Below are positions 3,691 to 33,138 of a DNA stretch of 33,138 nucleotides, piece after piece. The stretch lies in NCBI GenBank assembly GCA_003249035.1, contig QBMK01000038.1, positions 1-33,138 on the forward strand, written 5' to 3'. This DNA is from Pseudanabaena sp. (GTDB taxonomy: Bacteria > Cyanobacteriota > Cyanobacteriia > Pseudanabaenales > Pseudanabaenaceae). The translations under genes were made by a program, and so were the position numbers. Each line of letters begins with the position of its first letter. Position 1 is the first letter of the stretch. Under the pieces are notes generated by a model. The model worked only from the letters and a program-made list of their open reading frames with translations, was not told where the DNA came from and searched no databases.

Positions 3691-4026
3691 TTAGTAACGA
3701 GCAGCATTAGGCTTGTGTACGATGAAGCTTTGGACTTGGCACTGCTTGATGTTGTCGAAAGCAACAACACGGATGAAGCTACCAGGATAGCTAGAGCGGC
3801 AAGCTTGAACTTCAGTCAAAACTTCTTGAGGAGTTCTGGCGCTGAACAAGGGCAACTTCCAAAGAGTCCAGTAGTGGATAGCTGGATCGGAATCTTCATT
3901 GAATTCGATCGCAGGGTAGAAACCTTGCTTAAGGGTGTACTCGATTTGACGAGTGATTTGAGCATCGCTCAAAGGGGGAAGATAAGAAAGAGTTTCGTAA
4001 CGACGCTCTTTTGGTAAAGTTTGCAT
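3691..4026 (-). CDS. rbcS: RuBisCO small subunit
   Basis: The 111-residue protein is the small subunit of form I ribulose-1,5-bisphosphate carboxylase/oxygenase. It caps the L8 core of the L8S8 enzyme in the carboxysome. Recognisable stretches are [46 protein letters not shown] and the C-terminal [11 protein letters not shown]. Its length fits cyanobacterial RbcS. AGGA lies upstream of the ATG. It is the last gene of rbcL-rbcX-rbcS, 27 bases after rbcX, and is closed by a strong terminator. Confidence 0.97.
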
Positions 4027-4053
4027 TATTTCCTCGCGATTAGAATTATATTT

Positions 4054-4575
4054 CTATTGATTTTGTTGAGTGGTAGCGCGATCGCCATCAACATCTGAAT
4101 CCGCAATCGATTCTAAAGGTTCTTCTAAGAGATTTTCGAGACTAACTTCTAAACTAGATTCTGGATTGCTTTTCTCATCAATCCCAGTATCTAACTTATT
4201 TTCTAGATTCTCGCATTCTGCATATCCCTCAGAAGCCTGAACACTCATGATGCGTTCAAAATGCTGACGACGAAGTTGCATATTTGATTGTTGGATGCCA
4301 GTACGAGTCATTTCAGGCAAAAATTCTAAAATTTCATTAGCCAAATGCTCTCGAACTGTCATTACTCGAAAAGCCATTTCTTGGTTGACCTCAAAAAGGT
4401 CTTTGATATAAAGCTCGCCATTTTGGAGTCGCGCGCGCGTTGAGAACTGATTAAACCAAAGAGCTTTTAACTTATCGGTTTCCTGCAATTGCTCACCAAT
4501 TGTCTTAACAGCCTCGAAGGTCAAAAAATTGATCAACATATTGGCTGTGGACTTAGTACTGCGCTTAATATCCAT
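4054..4575 (-). CDS. rbcX: RuBisCO assembly chaperone RbcX with an acidic C-terminal extension
   Basis: RbcX is a homodimeric chaperone that clamps the C-terminal peptide of RbcL and helps build the L8 core. The helical core is clear at residues 1-111: STANMLINFLTFEAVKTIGE, then LWFNQFSTRARLQNGE, then REHLANEILEFLPEM and QLRRQHFERI. Most RbcX proteins are about 130-135 residues; this one has 173. The extra region (about 115-173) is rich in Glu, Asp and Ser (repeats of LENLL and EEPLES) and looks disordered. The gene sits between rbcL and rbcS, the usual place. Confidence 0.93.
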   Translation of the reverse strand: MDIKRSTKSTANMLINFLTFEAVKTIGEQLQETDKLKALWFNQFSTRARLQNGELYIKDLFEVNQEMAFRVMTVREHLANEILEFLPEMTRTGIQQSNMQLRRQHFERIMSVQASEGYAECENLENKLDTGIDEKSNPESSLEVSLENLLEEPLESIADSDVDGDRATTQQNQ

Positions 4576-4598
4576 AGGCTGAACTTAACCAAGAATTT

Positions 4599-4633
4599 TT
4601 TTGTGAGAATGGGCTTAGCCCATTCTCACAAAA
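4599..4633 (-). terminator. Hairpin between rbcL and rbcX
   Basis: A perfect 17-bp stem (4599-4615 with 4617-4633) ends 10 bases past the rbcL stop, ahead of the rbcX start. In the minus direction it is followed by T residues. It probably lets part of the transcripts end after rbcL, or protects the rbcL 3' end, so that rbcL message exceeds rbcX-rbcS message. That role is inference. Confidence 0.65.
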
Positions 4634-4643
4634 GCTAATCAAT

Positions 4644-6074
4644 TTAGACGGTATCCATTGCTTCAAATTCAAACTTGATTTCTTTCCAGAGTTCAAGTGC
4701 AACGTTCAATTCAGGAGACCAACGACCAGCTTCACGGAGGATGTCGCCACCTTCACGCATCATGTCGCGACCTTCGTTACGTGCTTGTACGCAAGCTTCA
4801 AGAGCAACGCGGTTAGCGGTTGCACCAGGAGCAGCACCCCATGGGTGACCCAATGTACCACCACCGAACTGTAGGCAAGAGTCATCGCCGAAGATTTCGA
4901 CGAGCGCAGGCATGTGCCATACGTGGATACCACCCGAAGCAACGGGCATAACACCAGGCATAGAAGCCCAATCTTGAGTGAAGTAGATACCACGTTCGCG
5001 ATCGAGTTCGATGTGGTCTTCACGCATTAGGTCAACAAAGCCCATGGTGATTCCCTTTTCGCCTTCGAGTTTACCAACAACGGTTCCAGAGTGGAGGTGA
5101 TCGCCACCAGACATACGGAGACACTTAGCCAAAACGCGGAAGTGAATACCGTGGGTTTTTTGACGGTCAATAACTGCGTGCATTGCGCGGTGAATGTGCA
5201 AGAGCAAGCCATTGTCGCGGCAATACTTAGCAAGAGAGGTGTTAGCGGTGAAACCACCAGTCAAGAAGTCATGCATGATGATCGGTGTGCCGATTTCCTT
5301 TGCGAATTCTGCACGCTGCATCATTTGCTCAGATGTAGGAGCAGTTACGTTCAAGTAGTGACCCTTGATTTCGCCAGTTTCAGCTTGAGCTTTTTCGATT
5401 GCTTCTTGCACAAACAGGAAGCGATCGCGCCAACGCATGAAGGGCTGAGAGTTAATGTTTTCGTCGTCTTTGGTGAAGTCCAAACCGCCGCGCAAACATT
5501 CGTATACTGCACGACCGTAGTTCTTCGCAGATAGACCCAATTTAGGCTTAATGGTACAACCCAATAGAGGACGACCGTACTTGTTCAACTTGTCGCGCTC
5601 AACTTGGATACCGTGAGGAGGTCCTTGGAAAGTCTTGAGGTAAGCAATAGGTACGCGGATGTCTTCTAGACGAAGTGCGCGAAGAGCTTTGAAACCGAAT
5701 ACGTTACCAACCAATGAGGTTAGCAAGTTGGTTACAGAACCTTCCTCGAACAAGTCTAGAGGATATGCGATGTAAGCGATATATTGATTGTCTTCGTTAG
5801 GTACTGGCTCGACATCATAGCAACGACCTTTGTAGCGATCGAGGTCGGTCAACAAATCTGTCCATACAGTTGTCCATGTACCTGTAGAAGATTCAGCGGC
5901 TACCGCAGCAGCAGCTTCTTCTGGGGGTACGCCTGGTTGAGGCACGAAGCGAAAAGCAGCGAGAAGGTCAGTATCTCTGGGTGTGTAATCGGGGGTATAG
6001 TACTTTAGTTTATAGTCCTGAACACCTGCGTCGTACCCAGCCTTAGCTTTAGACTGTGTTTTTGAGTAAGACAT
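4644..6074 (-). CDS. rbcL: RuBisCO large subunit, form IB
   Basis: The 476-residue catalytic subunit carboxylates or oxygenates ribulose-1,5-bisphosphate in the Calvin cycle. Key parts are visible: the KPKLGLS segment (Lys177 and Lys179), the carbamylated Lys202 in [10 protein letters not shown] with the metal ligands Asp204 and Glu205, and the mobile loop 6 GTVVGKLEG. The N-terminus ([20 protein letters not shown]) and overall sequence are those of cyanobacterial form IB enzymes. AAGGAG stands six bases before the ATG, an unusually good ribosome site for this window. It is first in the operon, preceded by about 710 bases without a gene. Confidence 0.98.
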
Positions 6075-10098: not shown

Positions 10099-11178
10099 TC
10101 ACAAAAGAGCGGCAACAGATAGAGCATCGAGTATAGAATCTCTACCGACAAGGGAGGCTATGACAGATTTAGACACCTCAGAGAAACGATTCTTGACCAA
10201 AAGCCTTAACTCATCCATATTTTTGGGTAAAGTAAACCGCAACCCTTGCTTTAAATGTAACCAAACTCGTTCAATCGGGTTTAATTCTGGAGAATGAGCA
10301 GACTGAAATATCAAAATGATGTTTTGCGGCAATCGTAAGCGCTTAGCCCAATGACAACCAGCTTGATCGACTTGCATGAGGAGGATGCTGTCCGCAAATT
10401 TCCCTGATACAAGGTCAAGAAATATTTGAAAACAGTCGGTGTTGAGATGACTAAATTCATAGAAAAAGCTTTCTCCCGTGGCAGGTTCGACGATACCGTA
10501 TAGCCATGTAGCTAGAAGCTGCCACTGGACTTTTGTCTTGGGCTTAACCCCACGGGCGGTGATTTTACGGCAACTGATAGTTTTCAAACCAATCCTTGTT
10601 TCATCTTGGCAAAAGAAACGAACTTTTACCGATAAGCCCAGCACTGATACGACATACCATGCAATCATCGCTAGGTTGTCAGAGAGTTTTTTATAGTCCT
10701 CGCATTGCGCTTGGTTTTGGCTGGCGCTATAGGAACGTGCTACCTTTGATCTGGCTCTCATTCGGTAATGTACCAAGTCATGCACATTTTTGTATGAAAT
10801 TTTTATATGAAATTTCGATTCCTAGTTTTTCCTGCAACCAGTGACGTATCTCTCCGTAACTATTAAATCCTTCTTCCTGTTGCAGTTGTTTGTCCAGTGC
10901 TTTTTGCGGCCACTCTGGGATTTTGGGCATTCTGCCTACTCTTGGTTTATGGCTTAGTATTCCTGTAATTCCTCCCTCTCGATATCCTCTTATCCATTCT
11001 TGCACTGTGCTACGGTTTCTCCCGATTAGTTTGGCACAGGCTTGTATTGTTGCGGCTTGCTTTTCAGTAAGTACAATACTTGCACTCGCTCTTTGTCTGT
11101 AACTGTTTTCTGCCACCCTAGCATCTCTTTCAGCTCTTCTTCACTTTTACTTATTTCTAATCTGTATACTCCTACCAT
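10099..11178 (-). pseudogene. IS630-family transposase, split over three frames
   Basis: The first frame starts at the ATG complementary to 11176-11178 (MVGVYRLEISKSEEELKEML) and runs to LYLLK. The helix-turn-helix part is in a second frame: QAATIQACAKLIGRNRSTVQ, WIRGYREGG, ending in LGIEISYKN. The catalytic part is in a third frame from 10785: FFCQDETRIGL holds the first Asp, LLMQVDQAGCHW the second, and SPELNPIERVWLHLK the final Glu of the DDE triad, as usual in this family. The step between frames two and three is caused by a 13-bp tandem duplication. The first step is shared with the remnant at 571-756, so it could be a programmed -1 shift or an inherited lesion. The protein is unlikely to be made whole. 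Confidence 0.85.
10787..10812 (-). repeat. 13-bp tandem duplication breaking the transposase frame
   Basis: TTTTTGTATGAAA (10787-10799) is followed at once by TTTTTATATGAAA (10800-10812), one mismatch in 13. Removing one copy joins the frame LGIEISYKN directly to VHDLVHYRMRAR, the expected continuity in this transposase family. Confidence 0.85.
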
Positions 11179-27180: not shown

Positions 27181-29877
27181 TTATTTAATTTTCATTCCTT
27201 CGTCACTAAAGAGATTGCTATATGTTAATGGGATTGTGATTATACAGGTTGTACCTTGTCCAACTTCGCTATTAAGGGAAATACTTCCTTGATGCAAATC
27301 AACGCATTTTTTGACAACAACTAGACCTAAACCAGTGCCAGAAATAGTTTTGACATTCTTTCCTCTGTGAAATGGCTCAAATAATTGCTTTTGATCTTCC
27401 AACAGAATTCCAATTCCTTGATCTTGGACTTTAATTATTAGATTATCTGATTGGAACTCTAGGGAAAGAGAGATATTCCCACCCTGCGGAGAATATTTAA
27501 TTGCGTTGGAAAGTAAATTTGAGAGCATCGATCGCAACAACTTTTCATCAAGACAAACATGCTGAGACTTGCCTTGACAAGTAAACATAAGCTGGCGTTG
27601 ATTGCCAGCACTAAGTTGCATTTCTTCGACAAAGTGACGGCAGTAAGCCTCTAATGCTAGTGGTTTAGGATTAAAGGCGAGTTTTCCAGTTTCAGCACGA
27701 TTAATTGTCAAAATGTCATCAAGTAACTGCACCATATTCCTGACTGAATCTTGGATGCGATGTAAATTACGCAATCTTTTTTCGGTGTTATCCCATTCAT
27801 TTCGAGAATTTTCGAGAACCTGTGCAGCCGCCAGCGCTGTGCTCAATGGCGTGCGAAACTCATGGGATGCCATAGAGAAAAAGCGCGTTTTTAAGGCACT
27901 TAGTTCTTTTTCTCTTTCGAGTGCAAGCCAAATTTCATCAAGGCGTTTACGTTCGGTGATGTCTCGGGCATTGACCATAACTTTCAAGGTTGCGGCGCTA
28001 TCAGCAAAGGGCTGACTGATGGCTTCAAGAATTCGCCAAGAACCATCTTGATGACGATGCCGAAATTCAATGGGATTGAGAATTTCTGTTTGATTATTAT
28101 TGGCAAGAAGATCGCGCAATGCCACTTGCGGAAAACTTTGAGCGATCGGCAAATCTTCTGGATGTATAAATTCGTTCACATTTGCGCCGAAAAGTTCAGT
28201 TACGGCATAACCTAAAACTTTTTCGACGGAGGGACTGACATAGCCAATTGTGCCATCTGGATCGAGGATCATAATGATATCTAAGGCATTTTCGATCAGC
28301 GATCGGAAACGTTCTTCGCTTTGTCGAAGAGCTTGTTCAACTTGCTTGCGCTCGGTGGTGTCACGTTGGACGGCAATCCAATGGGTATACCAACCTTTTG
28401 CGTTAGAGACTGGTACTAAACTAAATTCATTCCAAAATTCAGTTCCATCTTTACGATAGTTAATGACTTCGACGGTGACAGGTTCCCATCTGGCTAGAGC
28501 ATTACGAACTTTATGGAGTTGGGATTGATCGGTTTTTTTCCCCTGTAAAATTCTTGGCGTTTGTCCTAAAACTTCTTCGGGTTGGTATCCTGTGATCCTC
28601 GTAAAAGCTTCATTTACATAGAGGATTCTGGGGCCAGGAGCGTCGATCGGTTCTGCTTCGGTAACGATTACTGCGTCATTGGTATTAACCACAACAGATT
28701 GCAATAGTCGCACCTGTTCTGCTTGTCTTTTTTGTTCGGAAATATCCGCGATTACGGCGACGAGTCCGCTAATTTCTCCATTTGTGTCAGGCAAGGGTGC
28801 AGCGGAAAAAATAATATTGATCTCTTTTCCATCCTTGCGATGACGACATAGCTCCACTCTGGTGTAGGTTTTACCTTGCAGAACGCTGCCTTGGATGGTT
28901 GTATAGTCCTCAATCGGCTCATCAAGGCTAATCGGACTAGGACGATCGATGACTTCAGCTTCTGTCCAACCAAACATCTGTTCGGCAGCAGGATTCCAGA
29001 TCTTGACATTTCCTTCCAAATCAAGCATCAAGATTGCGCGAGGAGATGCACTAACTAGAGCTTGCAGGGTATCATTAGTTTGGCGTAAAGCAATTTCTGT
29101 TCTCTGCCGTTCCGAGATTTCTGCACGCAGAGAAACGTTAACAGTTGCCAGTTCGACTGTGCGTTCTTGGACTCGCTGTTCTAGTTGAGTATTTAGGTAT
29201 TGAAGCTGTTTATATAGCTCTGATTGTTGAATGGCGATCGCTACTTGAGTAGCGAGTTGTTTCATGAGTTCCACTTCCCAATCTTGCCATTGACGAGGGC
29301 GATTGCATTGATGGGCAATTAATAAACCCCAAAGATAAGGATTAGAAATTTCTGAATCACTACCTTCACGGGTTTCTTGGATAATTGGTACTACTAATTT
29401 TGCCTGAACTCCAAACTCTTTCACAAAATCAGCAAGACATGGTTCTACATCTGCTTGCTTGATGTTATTAATGGAGAGAGCTTTTCCTAGAGAGTAAGCT
29501 TGGTGATATTGTTGAGGGAATACCTCCTCGGGGAATACTTGACCCAAAATGCTGGGATAGGGCGACAAGACAGTTTCATGGATAGCACTACCAGTGCCAT
29601 CGTCCCATAGGCGATAGATCAAAACGCGATCAGCTCGTAGAAAGAGTTGGACTTCTTTGACCGTGGTTGCAAGGACTTGATCAAGGTTGAGTGATTTGCG
29701 GATTTGGTGAGCAATTTGCGTAACTAGTCTTTCGCGATCGCTCTGTTGTCGTAGAAGTTTTTCGTTGCGACGGCGATTTCTCTCTCTGATAAAGAAAAAA
29801 GAACCTGCCAACAGGATTAATATACCAAGGCAAATTCCGATCGCATAATAACTAATCATACTCTCAACTATCCCCAT
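27181..29877 (-). CDS. Membrane-bound sensor histidine kinase, TM-GAF-PAS-PAS-PAS-HisKA-HATPase
   Basis: An 898-residue sensor kinase. One membrane segment (about 8-30) is followed by a GAF domain (about 48-220), a coiled coil, three PAS domains (about 270-380, 392-510, 520-642), HisKA with phosphorylated His672 (SMASHEFRTPLS) and HATPase with the N box (SNLLSNAIKYS), DQGIG and GTGLGL. The GAF is close to the cyanobacterial phytochrome-type group: Cys147 (VEPCLADFVKEFGVQAKLVV) stands where bilin-binding Cys sits in cyanobacteriochromes, but the next residue is Leu, not the usual His or Tyr. Chromophore binding is therefore uncertain. The second PAS resembles LOV in layout (GQTPRILQGKKTD) but lacks the flavin cysteine. 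Ligands are unknown. It lies 97 bases past cpcL on the same strand, behind a hairpin. Confidence 0.93.
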   Translation of the reverse strand: MGIVESMISYYAIGICLGILILLAGSFFFIRERNRRRNEKLLRQQSDRERLVTQIAHQIRKSLNLDQVLATTVKEVQLFLRADRVLIYRLWDDGTGSAIHETVLSPYPSILGQVFPEEVFPQQYHQAYSLGKALSINNIKQADVEPCLADFVKEFGVQAKLVVPIIQETREGSDSEISNPYLWGLLIAHQCNRPRQWQDWEVELMKQLATQVAIAIQQSELYKQLQYLNTQLEQRVQERTVELATVNVSLRAEISERQRTEIALRQTNDTLQALVSASPRAILMLDLEGNVKIWNPAAEQMFGWTEAEVIDRPSPISLDEPIEDYTTIQGSVLQGKTYTRVELCRHRKDGKEINIIFSAAPLPDTNGEISGLVAVIADISEQKRQAEQVRLLQSVVVNTNDAVIVTEAEPIDAPGPRILYVNEAFTRITGYQPEEVLGQTPRILQGKKTDQSQLHKVRNALARWEPVTVEVINYRKDGTEFWNEFSLVPVSNAKGWYTHWIAVQRDTTERKQVEQALRQSEERFRSLIENALDIIMILDPDGTIGYVSPSVEKVLGYAVTELFGANVNEFIHPEDLPIAQSFPQVALRDLLANNNQTEILNPIEFRHRHQDGSWRILEAISQPFADSAATLKVMVNARDITERKRLDEIWLALEREKELSALKTRFFSMASHEFRTPLSTALAAAQVLENSRNEWDNTEKRLRNLHRIQDSVRNMVQLLDDILTINRAETGKLAFNPKPLALEAYCRHFVEEMQLSAGNQRQLMFTCQGKSQHVCLDEKLLRSMLSNLLSNAIKYSPQGGNISLSLEFQSDNLIIKVQDQGIGILLEDQKQLFEPFHRGKNVKTISGTGLGLVVVKKCVDLHQGSISLNSEVGQGTTCIITIPLTYSNLFSDEGMKIK

Positions 29878-29908: not shown

Positions 29909-29961
29909 ATAAACGTTCTTAAAAAAGCCTTGCTTTGCATGGCTTTTTTAAGAACGTTTAT
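29909..29961 (-). terminator. Hairpin between cpcL and the histidine kinase
   Basis: A perfect 21-bp stem (29909-29929 with 29941-29961) with a TTGCTTTGCAT loop, followed by T residues in the minus direction. It lies just past the cpcL stop and probably ends most cpcL transcripts. Confidence 0.8.
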
Positions 29962-29973
29962 AAATTATAAGGT

Positions 29974-30711
29974 TTACAACCCAAGGAAAACTCCTAATAT
30001 CAAGAAGCTAACAATACCAACTCCAGCATAGGTAATCCCTGCACCAATTTTGCCGATAATTGCGGGTGGATTTTTCTGCCATTCCCAACGCAGATAATCA
30101 AGTTTTGCAGCACCTTTATTGCCTGTAAAGACTTGTTTCGGAAGGCGATCACGGTAGTCAGCGCCATAACGAGCCATGTGCGCAAAGGTGACTTCGCCCT
30201 TGGTCTGCTTAGCCAAGATACGGCGACGTTGATAGGGAACAGTGCTATCGCCAAAGTTACTGAGATATTCTTCGCTATTGAGCAACTCATCCACAAAAAC
30301 TTGAATACCTTTGGTCGCAATTACAATCGACCATGCAATCTTTTCGCGATCACTATAGACATTACGTCCAAGAATTCGCTGGATACAAATCTCTGCAAAG
30401 CGATAGTTATTATTACTATCAAAAGTCAATCGTCTAAAGGAATCAGATAATACCAAGCCGCGAATGAATCCTCTAACCGTAATTTGTCCCGATCTCAACT
30501 GAGACTCTAGGTTTACTTGGCGATGGCTTTCTAGCATTTGCTGTTCGTTGCAGATTTGACGATAGGCGGCGCTGATCAAGAGATCTAGCTCAAAACCAGA
30601 CAGAAGATTATCGGTGCTATAAATCCGAGGTTGCTCATCACCAGCGACCTCAAAACCAGCCACGCGCTGATTTTGGGATAAGGGTTTGTACTCTAATAAT
30701 GGAAGTGTCAT
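29974..30711 (-). CDS. cpcL: Membrane-anchored phycobilisome rod linker CpcL (CpcG2)
   Basis: CpcL connects phycocyanin rods to the thylakoid, making rod-only phycobilisomes that feed mainly photosystem I, instead of attaching rods to the allophycocyanin core as CpcG1 does. The 245-residue protein starts [20 protein letters not shown], the CpcG signature, and contains a linker domain (about 30-190: [58 protein letters not shown]). The C-terminus is a hydrophobic helix ([20 protein letters not shown]), present in CpcL and absent from CpcG1. The ATG at 30711 is set by AGGAG seven bases upstream. It follows the rod linker gene by about 70 bases that contain a hairpin, and the two probably form one operon under CcaR. 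Confidence 0.93.
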
Positions 30712-30742
30712 GAATATTCTCCTAAAAAATCTTAATAAAATC

Positions 30743-30775
30743 TGTAGAACTTGGCGCAAAGCGCCAAGTTCTACA
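30743..30775 (-). repeat. Hairpin between the rod linker gene and cpcL
   Basis: A perfect 15-bp stem (30743-30757 with 30761-30775), AAA loop, apex GGCGCAAAGCGCC. No long T run follows, so it may shape mRNA processing between the two genes rather than stop transcription fully. Confidence 0.65.
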
Positions 30776-30782
30776 TTGAGCG

Positions 30783-31839
30783 TTAACTATTGAAAACGCG
30801 GCTGCGCCATTTGTTCAATCGCGCATCACCGATCGCGGCGTATCTCCGCGCATCAGCAATCTGGGCTTGCAGGGAGGCAATCTGTTCAATCTGATTGTCA
30901 GACTGTTGTAATAACGAGCCAGAGGCATCTCCTTGAACCGAGACAACCGAAGGTTGCCAAGAATTTTTAAGATAAGATGCACCAATAGAAGCCGATGGAC
31001 GAAGATCGGCTAGTTGTTTTTGCAAACTTTCGATGATTAGAGCTTGCTCCAGTAGAGTTTGTCGTAAAGCTTGCTCGGCGGCAAAGTTTGCCGCCACCCA
31101 AGATTCAGTTTGTCCACCCGATGTTTTGGGCTTAAAGACCTCAGCGAGGATCGCCGCAGAATCACTGAACTTAAGCTTGTCGTAGGGCGAATCAGGTGAG
31201 CCGTTGAGTGGTGCGATCGCGCTTGGACGATTTCGGAAAATACAACTATTCAGTCGGAAGCGATTTTGATGAGTTGGATCTTTATCGCTGCTGGCTGATC
31301 CGCGCAAAAGCTGAAACATATGCGTAAACCCAACCATTTTTTTTCCCATCTGGGATTTATACCCACGATAGTAAGGAACGGTATCTTCGCCAAAAGCATG
31401 ATGATATTCATCACTATCGATGTACTCATTGATCTCCATTTCAAGCCCACCGCGATCGAGCAACTGAGCATGATCAGCCATCTCTTCCGCACTTTCAGGA
31501 GCACGACCGAGCAAATGTTTGAAATTAAGTTCAATTAATCGCATTCGTGGACATGTCTCAAAAAATCTAGCGCGATACATCTCTGACAGGGCAATCTGAC
31601 GCACATATTCGCGTACAGAGATATTTCCCTGTTTAAGTTGAGATTCGGCGACAGTCAACCGTTCGCTTTCCATGACATAGGAATTGCCAAGTACTTGGCG
31701 ATAGGCGGCACGAATGACTAGATCGACATCAGATTTGGAATGATTTTGCAAAAAGCTGAATCGGCGCTGTTTCCTCGAATCGGCTAACCCCAAGGTTTGC
31801 CTCTGGATTAACCAGCGGATTTATAAAAGTACTGACCAT
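30783..31839 (-). pseudogene. Phycobilisome rod linker gene with an apparent one-base frameshift
   Basis: Most of the linker is encoded in one frame: SDVDLVIRAAYRQVLGN, YVMESERLTVAESQLKQGNI, SVREYVRQIALSEMYRARFF, IELNFKHLLGRAPES and VPYYRGYKSQMGKKMVGFTH are typical PBS linker (PF00427) segments. The C-terminal third (about 225-336) is a coiled-coil-like extension with two similar blocks (LRPSASIGASYL and ARRYAAIGDARLNKWRS). No CpcD domain is visible. The usual N-terminus, MVSTFINPLVNPEANLGVSR then FEETAPIQLF, is encoded from ATG 31839 in another frame that stops at 31729. Removing one base from the A4 or T5 run near 31744-31754 joins them as a normal linker. Without that, only a TTG start at 31793 is available. 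A sequencing error, a real mutation or a recoding event remain possible. It is first in the unit with cpcL. Confidence 0.8.
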
Positions 31840-32383
31840 ATTAAATATCTATGTACTAAATTAACTTGCGTTTATTTTGAGGGTTGTAATTAAAAGAATA
31901 TTTATTAAAAGTAATTAAGCTTGATCATCAAATCTTGTTTTAAAACTGCCGTATTTAATCCAATATCGCTTTAAATCATAGTGTTGAGTATGCATGCCTT
32001 GGCATGATACTACCCATTCAAATTCTCCAAATCTAAGTTGTATGTAAATTCACTTGGATGCACGACGCTTTGCGATGCACATCCTAACTTCCAGATCAAA
32101 AATTGTTTGTTTAAATCGATAGTGATCGTGACAATCAATCTTTTCTGACAATGAATCTAGATAATCTCATACCAAAAGTAAGGAAACTGGTCAGGGAATT
32201 GTAAAGAAAACGGAAAGATTGACCCTAGTCAATAAATCTTGATACTCTGTTACATTTGTTTGGATTTGGAAGGCGCAATCTATGATATACCAATGCTCTT
32301 AATCTGGATGGAAGCGTATTTTAGCGACAATTTTTTGTAGAATCAGAATAGTTTGATTGCATCTCCAAAAAAATTTCTATCCT
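31840..32383. promoter_or_regulatory. Divergent regulatory region between the rod linker gene and ccaR
   Basis: 544 bases with no supported gene separate the linker start from ccaR. They contain the G-box-like repeat (32196-32217), a CATGCC-TT-GGCATG palindrome (31993-32006), and an imperfect hairpin around GACGCTTTGCGATGC (32056-32084). If transcription of the linker genes starts just past the G-box, their leader would be about 300 bases. Confidence 0.6.
32196..32217 (-). promoter_or_regulatory. Candidate CcaR G-box
   Basis: Read on the minus strand the site is CTTTCCGTTTT followed directly by CTTTACAATTC. The direct repeat reported for CcaR upstream of cpcG2/cpcL genes is CTTTNCNATTT; each half here differs at one defined position. 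Orientation points toward the linker-cpcL unit. Identification is by motif memory. Confidence 0.6.
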
Positions 32384-33070
32384 ATGAGGATTCTTCTGGT
32401 TGAAGATGATATCCGCCTTGCCGAAACCTTGGCAGAAGCGCTAACCGATGAGCGTTATGTTGTTGATATTGCCACTGACGGTGAAACGGGTTGGCATCAA
32501 GCTCAGTCCCTAGATTACGATCTGATGCTTTTGGATTTAATGTTGCCAGAACTGGATGGTATTAGTCTCTGTCATCGATTGCGATCGCATGGTTATAGTT
32601 TGCCAATCCTGATGCTGACCGCCTGTGACACCATCGATCACGAAATAAATGGGTTAGATGTAGGAGCAGATGATTATATTGTCAAACCTGTTGACTTACA
32701 AAAGCTATTTGCAAGGATTCGCGCACTATTACGTCGAGGTAGCCAAACTGCATCGCCAGTTCTGGGATGGGGCGAATTATATCTCAATCCAAGTACATGT
32801 GAAGTGGGCTATGGTAAAAATCCTATCCATTTAACGCCCAAGGAATATGCTCTTTTGGAATTGCTATTGCGCAATGGTCGGCGGGTATTGAGTCGTAGTG
32901 TAATGATAGAACATGTTTGGTCTTTGGAATCACCTCCAGAAGAACATACTGTGAAGGTTCATATTCGGGGATTACGCCAAAAAATGAAAGCCGCAGGAGC
33001 TAATGAAGATTTGATTGAGACGGTTCACAGTATGGGCTATCGGCTCAATCAAATTGATAGCAAATTTTGA
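32384..33070 (+). CDS. ccaR: OmpR-type response regulator CcaR
   Basis: CcaR is the DNA-binding partner of the green/red cyanobacteriochrome kinase CcaS and activates cpcL (cpcG2) and linked linker genes in green light. The 228-residue protein has a receiver (MRILLVEDDIRLAETLAEAL; phospho-acceptor Asp51 in LLDLMLPELDG; Thr79; Lys101 in VKPVDL) and a winged-helix output domain (about 130-225: LTPKEYALLELLLRNGRRVL, ESPPEEHTVKVHIRGLRQKM, IETVHSMGYRL). VKPVDLQKLFARIRALLRRG and RNGRRVLSRS agree closely with my memory of CcaR. Its position, divergent from a linker-cpcL unit, is the known arrangement. ATG 32384 gives the MRILLVEDD family start. Confidence 0.85.
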   Translation: MRILLVEDDIRLAETLAEALTDERYVVDIATDGETGWHQAQSLDYDLMLLDLMLPELDGISLCHRLRSHGYSLPILMLTACDTIDHEINGLDVGADDYIVKPVDLQKLFARIRALLRRGSQTASPVLGWGELYLNPSTCEVGYGKNPIHLTPKEYALLELLLRNGRRVLSRSVMIEHVWSLESPPEEHTVKVHIRGLRQKMKAAGANEDLIETVHSMGYRLNQIDSKF

Positions 33071-33107: not shown

Positions 33108-33138
33108 CTTAGGAATGATAATTTAATAAAACCCAAAA
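33108..33138. repeat. Partial copy of the AAACCCAAAA palindrome, cut by the window edge
   Basis: CTTAGGAATGATA (33108-33120) is identical to 27099-27111 and is followed, as there, by TAATAAAACCCAAAA. The rest of the palindrome would lie beyond the window. Confidence 0.6.

Follow-up and report, generated by a model that had tools for sequence, protein, structure and literature searches.

A CcaS-CcaR acclimation cluster in a Pseudanabaena genome with remnants of a phycoerythrin operon

When the regulator CcaR faces a rod linker and the membrane-anchored linker CpcL, is the locus an ordinary green/red acclimation locus, or does it carry the history of another one? The question is raised by contig QBMK01000038.1 of Pseudanabaena sp. 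(assembly GCA_003249035.1). The window analyzed here is this entire contig (C31; 33,138 bases) of a draft genome (G000; 4.55 Mb, 60 contigs, 95.5% complete). An initial annotation had described an OmpR regulator matching CcaR, opposite a minus-strand unit of a rod linker and cpcL, as a locus of type 1 chromatic acclimation (CA1). Our reading, to which we give a probability of about 0.85, is that this is a CcaS-CcaR (CcaSR) cluster which was once a type 2 (CA2) operon with CpcL added, containing a cpeE-like linker (LRy), cpeR, a second linker (LRx) and cpcL. Phycoerythrin was lost, a deletion removed LRy together with the bulk of cpeR, and LRx was frameshifted, while the CA1 core is intact. The genes, the box, the deletion and the frameshift can be read directly in this assembly, as can the scars at other loci of the genome. 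CA1 is a familiar type, here arrived at through the visible decay of a second type, CA2. No new mechanism is involved, but the locus is a plain intermediate and the strain would be of use for tests.

The sensor, the regulator, their box and CpcL

Outward from ccaR on the plus strand, the minus strand carries a leader, LRx, cpcL and ccaS (Table 1). The kinase directly behind cpcL is ccaS, judging from its domains and photosensor residues. Pfam recognizes a cyanobacteriochrome GAF domain, three PAS domains, HisKA and HATPase, and the N-terminal segment is hydrophobic. The best matches among solved structures are to RcaE (8k9o with 170 bits over residues 41-225; 7ckv with 154 bits over residues 62-225). 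The GAF domain is of the RcaE/CcaS type: a Cys-Leu motif with a Glu at -31 and a Lys at +13 is common to RcaE and to 21 of 21 aligned CcaS proteins, that of the window included. We take the shared residues to be Glu217, Leu249 and Lys261 of RcaE, the Glu and the Lys presumably being triad partners. The position of the Leu beside the Cys in both CcaS and RcaE is also mentioned in an excerpt of PMC9415938.

The regulator gene starts at ATG 32384; the listed open reading frame opens at TTG 32357. In a tree of 49 regulators, no named CcaR among them, the window protein fell into a supported clade of 26 (99/97). Within this clade ccaS was present in the fetched stretch for 21 members and absent from it for 3, one of them at a contig end; the surroundings of the other 2 are outside the count. 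The window CcaR hence groups with regulators encoded next to ccaS. In a search of the phylum 98 of 386 genomes had a match with E of 1e-70 or below, and 20 of the best places outside the genus set, when fetched, contained a ccaS-like gene in 16 cases and a cpcL-like gene in 11. A contig search with CcaR listed 80 loci, many of which are OmpR regulators of other phyla with 38-47% identity; among these 80 only L117 (81%) exceeds 70% identity, and no Synechocystis or N. punctiforme record occurs.

These results agree with the initial annotation as far as CcaR and the minus-strand unit opposite to it are concerned. They also show that ccaS, which it had overlooked together with the cpeR fossil and the CcaR box described below, is present in the genome and that CcaR does not fall among unrelated OmpR regulators.

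As reference for the binding site we used the 22-base G-box that a passage of PMC8256508 reports with Synechocystis CcaR. The predicted G-box upstream of the target operon is the sole match in the window with three mismatches or fewer, and none appeared in 100 shuffles. When only the leader was considered, the best of 500 shuffles reached 17/22, compared with the 19/22 observed. The box is letter-identical in the genus genomes G012, G015, G019 and G020 and matches at 19-20 of 22 positions in six further ones; it precedes all 11 genus operons with a leader at hand. In a sample of 29 leaders (23 + 6, two fetched loci without a usable leader excluded) the best match was 17-21/22 in every one. In both the window and G015, 178 bases separate the box from the first start codon.

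The cpcL product matches the solved photosystem-I linker CpcL (8hfq) with 297 bits, over nearly its full length from residue 1. Its hydropathy over 19 residues reaches 2.13 at residue 226, near the C-terminus, compared with a maximum of 1.28 in the CpcG of the same genome; the C-terminal hydrophobic helix is absent from this single CpcG-like gene. In the linker-domain tree the protein was placed in the CpcG/CpcL branch, and it remained below the cut-off for all four NCBIfam CpcG models matched. CpcL here combines a CpcG-like linker domain with a C-terminal hydrophobic helix, as had been proposed for it from the outset. Furthermore, ccaR, cpcL and ccaS are all under purifying selection, with ratios of nonsynonymous to synonymous substitution rates (dN/dS) of 0.02-0.10 in every pair with the window genome.

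An excerpt of PMC9415938 defines CA1 by cpcL together with the CcaS pathway, and both are found here. The clade of CcaR, the presence of ccaS, a real cpcL and a box before the operon point to CA1 as the likely functional end-state; with phycoerythrin gone (see below), the CcaSR-cpcL system would count as CA1. In green light CcaS would phosphorylate CcaR, which would then bind the box and raise cpcL, and red light would reverse this, as in the known pathway outlined in part of PMC12461855. For the switching of CcaS this paper gives values near 535/672 nm. By homology to the system treated in the same part of that paper, CpcL would anchor phycocyanin rods in the membrane and feed photosystem I.

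Remnants of phycoerythrin genes in the operon and elsewhere

The leader contains 27 codons (31918-31998) that are 81% identical to residues 86-112 of CpeR from G015, at the position of the intact cpeR of G015 and G020. These two genomes have the full set, in which ccaR faces LRy, cpeR, a two-module LRx, cpcL and ccaS. In alignment with them the window retains the G-box, the promoter and LRy as far as its fourth codon; about 1.18 kb are then missing, and the sequence resumes in the last part of cpeR.

LRx is the gene that the initial annotation had called a rod linker. It does contain one PBS_linker_poly domain (PF00427), followed by a tail of about 120-135 amino acids. In a quick linker-domain tree this domain fell into the CpeC clade (27 of 84 rows; support of 99 in the SH-like approximate likelihood ratio test), apart from the CpcC1 and CpcC2 of the genome and from CpcN, Glr1262 and Glr2806. 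The CpeC names in this tree rest on operon context and on our assumption. No CpcD match was found by Pfam in the window LRx, nor was one found in five of its relatives, and the tail has no match in the PDB at E 10. A standard CpeC has a linker domain and then CpcD; by tree and domain content, LRx is a tail-bearing relative of CpeC and not standard CpeC. The top PDB matches had suggested a CpcN-like linker, a candidate that the tree rules out; CpcN-type proteins head that list because scores sum over repeated domains.

The window LRx is 84-85% identical to the copies in G012 and G019. However, its downstream frame is open solely from a TTG, and the conserved ATG lies in another frame. At the site of the shift the window reads CTTTTTGC, whereas G012, G019, G015, G020 and G024 have CTTTGGC, one base fewer, and LRx reads straight through in all five. 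Programmed frameshifting was considered and is unlikely, as the T run is absent from the relatives. LRx would make no normal linker any more.

Table 1. Positions of the genes, remnants and predicted sites of the CcaSR cluster in the window.
Feature	Position	Strand	Description
ccaS	27181..29877	-	898-aa sensor kinase; Pfam, solved matches, photosensor residues
cpcL	29974..30711	-	245-aa rod-membrane linker, C-terminal hydrophobic helix
LRx, downstream frame	30783..31793	-	module A (phycoerythrin-type rod linker domain, PF00427) and tail without CpcD
LRx 5' end, different frame	31729..31839	-	conserved N-terminus from ATG 31839; stop after 36 codons
T5 run at LRx frameshift	31750..31754	-	stretch one base longer than in five relatives
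cpeR fossil	31915..31998	-	final 27 codons and stop codon
LRy stub (lost cpeE-like linker)	32006..32017	-	first four codons, fused to cpeR remnant
Deletion junction	~32006	-	alignment with G015 and G020
CcaR-binding G-box (predicted), CTTTCCGTTTTCTTTACAATTC	32196..32217	-	19/22 to Synechocystis G-box
ccaR	32384..33070	+	OmpR-class response regulator, 228 aa; Pfam, tree

The tail is found beyond the genus. A search with it gave matches at E 0.001 in 27 of 386 genomes: the window genome, G019, five genomes with strong matches (49-56% identity, E at most 3e-21) and 20 with weak matches (E at least 2.6e-8). The strong matches, all outside the genus, are in G144, G296, G186, G193 and G110. In four of these five genomes (not G193) the tail-bearing linker lies among phycoerythrin genes, and in three it is beside cpeR.

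The rest of the genome was searched by family for the genes of the pigment itself. PF00502 gave 10 matches and no phycoerythrin pair (cpeBA): two phycocyanin pairs account for four of them, four single ones are taken for allophycocyanins and two lie within ApcE. The eight matches to PF00427 are the two window linkers, CpcC1, CpcC2, one CpcG-like protein and three in ApcE, with no cpeC or cpeE. Family search found neither pebA nor an intact pebB, and the only two intact bilin reductases are both PcyA by NCBIfam. A CA2 system, in which phycoerythrin genes are under CcaSR and the pigment is present, is not what this genome contains.

At three other loci the missing genes have left scars with both flanks kept. 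On C11, compared with G012, a deletion of 2.4 kb took cpeC and cpeE, and another of 1.9 kb took cpeS and cpeT together with the greater part of a second cpeR. On C22, again compared with G012, cpeB, cpeA, cpeY and part of cpeZ are gone in about 3.2 kb, and on C10, compared with G015, about 1.5 kb with pebA and the greater part of pebB is absent. The search for cpeS, cpeT and cpeY was made solely as DNA with the G012 locus, so that copies may exist elsewhere in the genome. In G012, PebA, PebB, CpeA, CpeB and CpeY exceed the NCBIfam cut-off; CpeC, CpeE, CpeR and CpeZ are names that we assume from gene context. A repeat of about 105 bases has at least 41 matches in the window genome, and its G012 copy (L264:6662-6767) lies between cpeY and cpeA.

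A phycoerythrin-like pair occurs in 7 of 11 genus genomes searched, checked by sequence in G012, G015 and G024 and judged from match lengths alone in G004, G005, G011 and G020. G019 seems to have lost phycoerythrin independently, given its different breakpoints (L314, L262); it keeps ccaS, ccaR, cpcL and an intact LRx. The fact that G019 gave no bilin reductase match at all suggests assembly gaps, and its loss of the pigment is less certain. A literature search on 'loss of phycoerythrin' did not meet the phrase in the six papers that it listed, which is no proof of absence in print.

The ancestral operon would have placed phycoerythrin genes and cpcL under CcaSR, as is still the case in G015 and G020. 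In the lineage of the window genome phycoerythrin would then have been lost, a deletion would have cut out LRy and most of cpeR, and LRx would have acquired its frameshift.

Operon variants in the genus and a predicted second green/red circuit

CcaS is present at 72% identity or more in 12 of 26 genus genomes; one of the 12 is G024, which has it only partially and where the operon is split over contigs. The CcaS of G019 (L057:13651-15975) has 774 amino acids compared with 893-894 in G012, G015 and G020, perhaps with one PAS domain fewer. Between leader and ccaS, G015 and G020 have LRy-cpeR-LRx-cpcL; G003 has LRy-cpeR-cpcL (with no ccaR in the fetched part); G012, G019 and the window have LRx-cpcL; and in G005, G018, G010, G001 and G008 cpcL is the sole recognised gene. 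The operon contents vary behind kept sensors and box, so that the same sensors and box precede anything from the CA2-plus-CpcL set down to cpcL alone. Between cpcL and ccaS the window has a strong inverted repeat (29909-29961), which may set the level of read-through into ccaS.

LRx itself was found at 65% identity or more in 7 of 26 genus genomes. It consists of module A and the tail in the window genome, G012 and G019, and of module B and the tail in G011. The two-module form of G015, G020 and G024 measures 587-589 amino acids and has no CpcD match; these linkers are encoded at L059:9225-10994, L060:9185-10954 and L062:283-2046, two of the three inside the CcaSR operon.

The window genome has genes for a second green/red system. 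On C15 (G000:C15:22838-26755, equal to L064:839-4756), genes for RcaE and for RcaF-like and RcaC-like proteins are followed by pcyA and, further on, by cpcBA-cpcC1-cpcC2. The GAF domain of this RcaE matches 8k9o with 296 bits and has the same Cys-Leu, Glu and Lys. The RcaF-like protein is a single receiver, and in the RcaC-like protein two receiver parts enclose a DNA-binding and then an Hpt part. We assume that these are the architectures of the known RcaF and RcaC, and we also assume the consensus of the L box. With this assumed consensus, L boxes are found upstream of pcyA (exact match, ending 66 bases from the gene) and of cpcB (a single mismatch, ending 242 bases from the gene); two such matches occurred in 0 of 200 shuffles. 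In G012 and G015 an L box with one mismatch lies on the opposite strand 205 bases before cpeC, in a stretch that is deleted in the window genome.

If L boxes act as we presume, this RcaE-RcaF-RcaC (RcaEFC) circuit would raise pcyA and phycocyanin in red light. We see an even chance that two green/red circuits of opposite effect, inherited from an ancestor with phycoerythrin, operate in this phycocyanin-only cell. RcaEFC, acting via the L boxes before pcyA and cpcBA, would increase bilin and phycocyanin in red light; CcaSR would raise CpcL in green light and direct the same phycocyanin to photosystem I. A change in the type of acclimation would then come about as target genes disappear and the sensors and boxes are retained, and the intermediate stages would be visible within the genus.

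Alternative readings and relation to known systems

The difference between our reading of a decayed CA2-plus-CpcL operon and a CA1 locus with a live LRx, serving phycocyanin rods on CpcL, lies solely in LRx. The live version would require that the shift is a sequencing error or that translation starts at TTG 31793, and we consider it rather unlikely. An AGAGG is located just upstream of this TTG, the linker domain lies entirely within the downstream frame, and LRx is intact in G019, another genome in which these searches found no phycoerythrin. However, LRx would lose its conserved N-terminal arm (about 28 residues) to unrelated sequence, it groups with phycoerythrin linkers, and the adjoining phycoerythrin parts are plainly destroyed. 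Several observations weigh against decay of the operon as we read it. Module A of LRx has a dN/dS of 0.08-0.23 in pairs with the window genome and is constrained past the frameshift. The changes private to the window LRx are more often silent (24) than not (17), compared with 42 and 17 in G019 and G012 together, and this test for relaxed selection was not significant (Fisher p = 0.20). Since LRx is still constrained downstream, the frameshift either arose recently, reflects an error of sequencing or is circumvented by an internal start. In addition, G012 has the single-module LRx-cpcL layout and yet keeps phycoerythrin, and G005 keeps a phycoerythrin-like pair in spite of its reduced operon; the case of G012 implies that reduction of the operon does not require loss of phycoerythrin. 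In G011 cpcL adjoins LRx, and the 20 kb fetched there contain neither ccaS nor ccaR.

The initial annotation implied a plain CA1 locus that never had any phycoerythrin parts. Although the genus provides five examples in which cpcL stands alone between ccaR and ccaS, we hold this to be very improbable: the cpeR fossil and the LRy stub are at the expected place, LRx belongs to the CpeC clade, cpe/peb scars occur at three other loci, and the fossil already refutes this version on the present sequence. The designation as CA1 stands for the core and for the likely end-state; it does not extend to the idea of an ordinary locus of this type whose rod linker works. Just as improbable is a persisting CA2 system whose phycoerythrin genes are missing from the assembly. 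The draft status of the genome would allow for it, but at three loci the contigs run uninterrupted from one flank to the other where the genes should be, no phycoerythrin pair is present and both intact bilin reductases score as PcyA. The least credible alternative is a two-component pair unrelated to chromatic acclimation. It could appeal to NCBIfam, where no CcaS or CcaR model is among the best 25 of the 96 and 97 families for kinase and regulator; the top families, both below cut-off, are a scytonemin-type kinase for the sensor and RppA-like for the regulator. Against it stand the RcaE-like GAF domain, the photosensor residues in 21 of 21 proteins, the CcaR clade and the G-box.

The CA1 cluster of Synechocystis sp. 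PCC 6803, as presented in part of PMC12461855, resembles the window locus in having ccaS, ccaR and cpcL together, a G-box before the operon and phycocyanin as the sole rod pigment. Compared by description, the window operon differs by its additional frameshifted phycoerythrin-type linker and the cpeR fossil. The window genome also has RcaEFC-like genes, which we take to be absent from PCC 6803. The CA2 cluster of Nostoc punctiforme, with phycoerythrin genes and cpcL (excerpts of PMC12461855 and PMC4417701), has the kind of layout found in G015, G020 and G213, in which ccaR faces one or more phycoerythrin linkers, cpeR and cpcL, followed by ccaS. Unlike this cluster, the window has cpeR and the first linker deleted and the other linker frameshifted, and phycoerythrin is gone. 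Hybrid acclimation by CcaSR and RcaEFC, with both green/red systems in one genome, was reportedly described by Otsu et al. in 2022; compared with it, the window genome has lost phycoerythrin, and L boxes remain before pcyA and cpcBA.

According to a passage of PMC10696076, CpcN occurs exclusively in Gloeobacteria, and one of PMC12525769 describes the multidomain Glr linkers as unique to Gloeobacter. The LRx proteins of G015, G020 and G024 likewise have two modules per chain without a CpcD match. Unlike CpcN, Glr1262 and Glr2806, their modules are in the CpeC clade, a separate branch, and the window copy has a single module.

Types of chromatic acclimation are usually listed as separate states, and this locus bears physical traces of a change from CA2 towards CA1; a single genus has the operon in its full form, in partly reduced form and at its minimum. 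The part of PMC12461855 cited above asks for further phycocyanin-only CA1 strains to test the idea of a leaky OFF state. The present strain is a phycocyanin-only CcaSR case; the RcaEFC-like genes that it still has are the twist for such tests.

Three further features of the window are outside the cluster. A short dispersed repeat (33108-33138) forms the end of the contig, and 36 of 43 sequence matches of the window involve this end. A transposase is encoded in two overlapping frames at 10099-11116, one with the helix-turn-helix part and one with the DDE_3 part. The genes at 3691-6074 are probably those of rubisco, with rbcL at 4644-6074 followed on its strand by two small genes; these names we presume from the protein starts.

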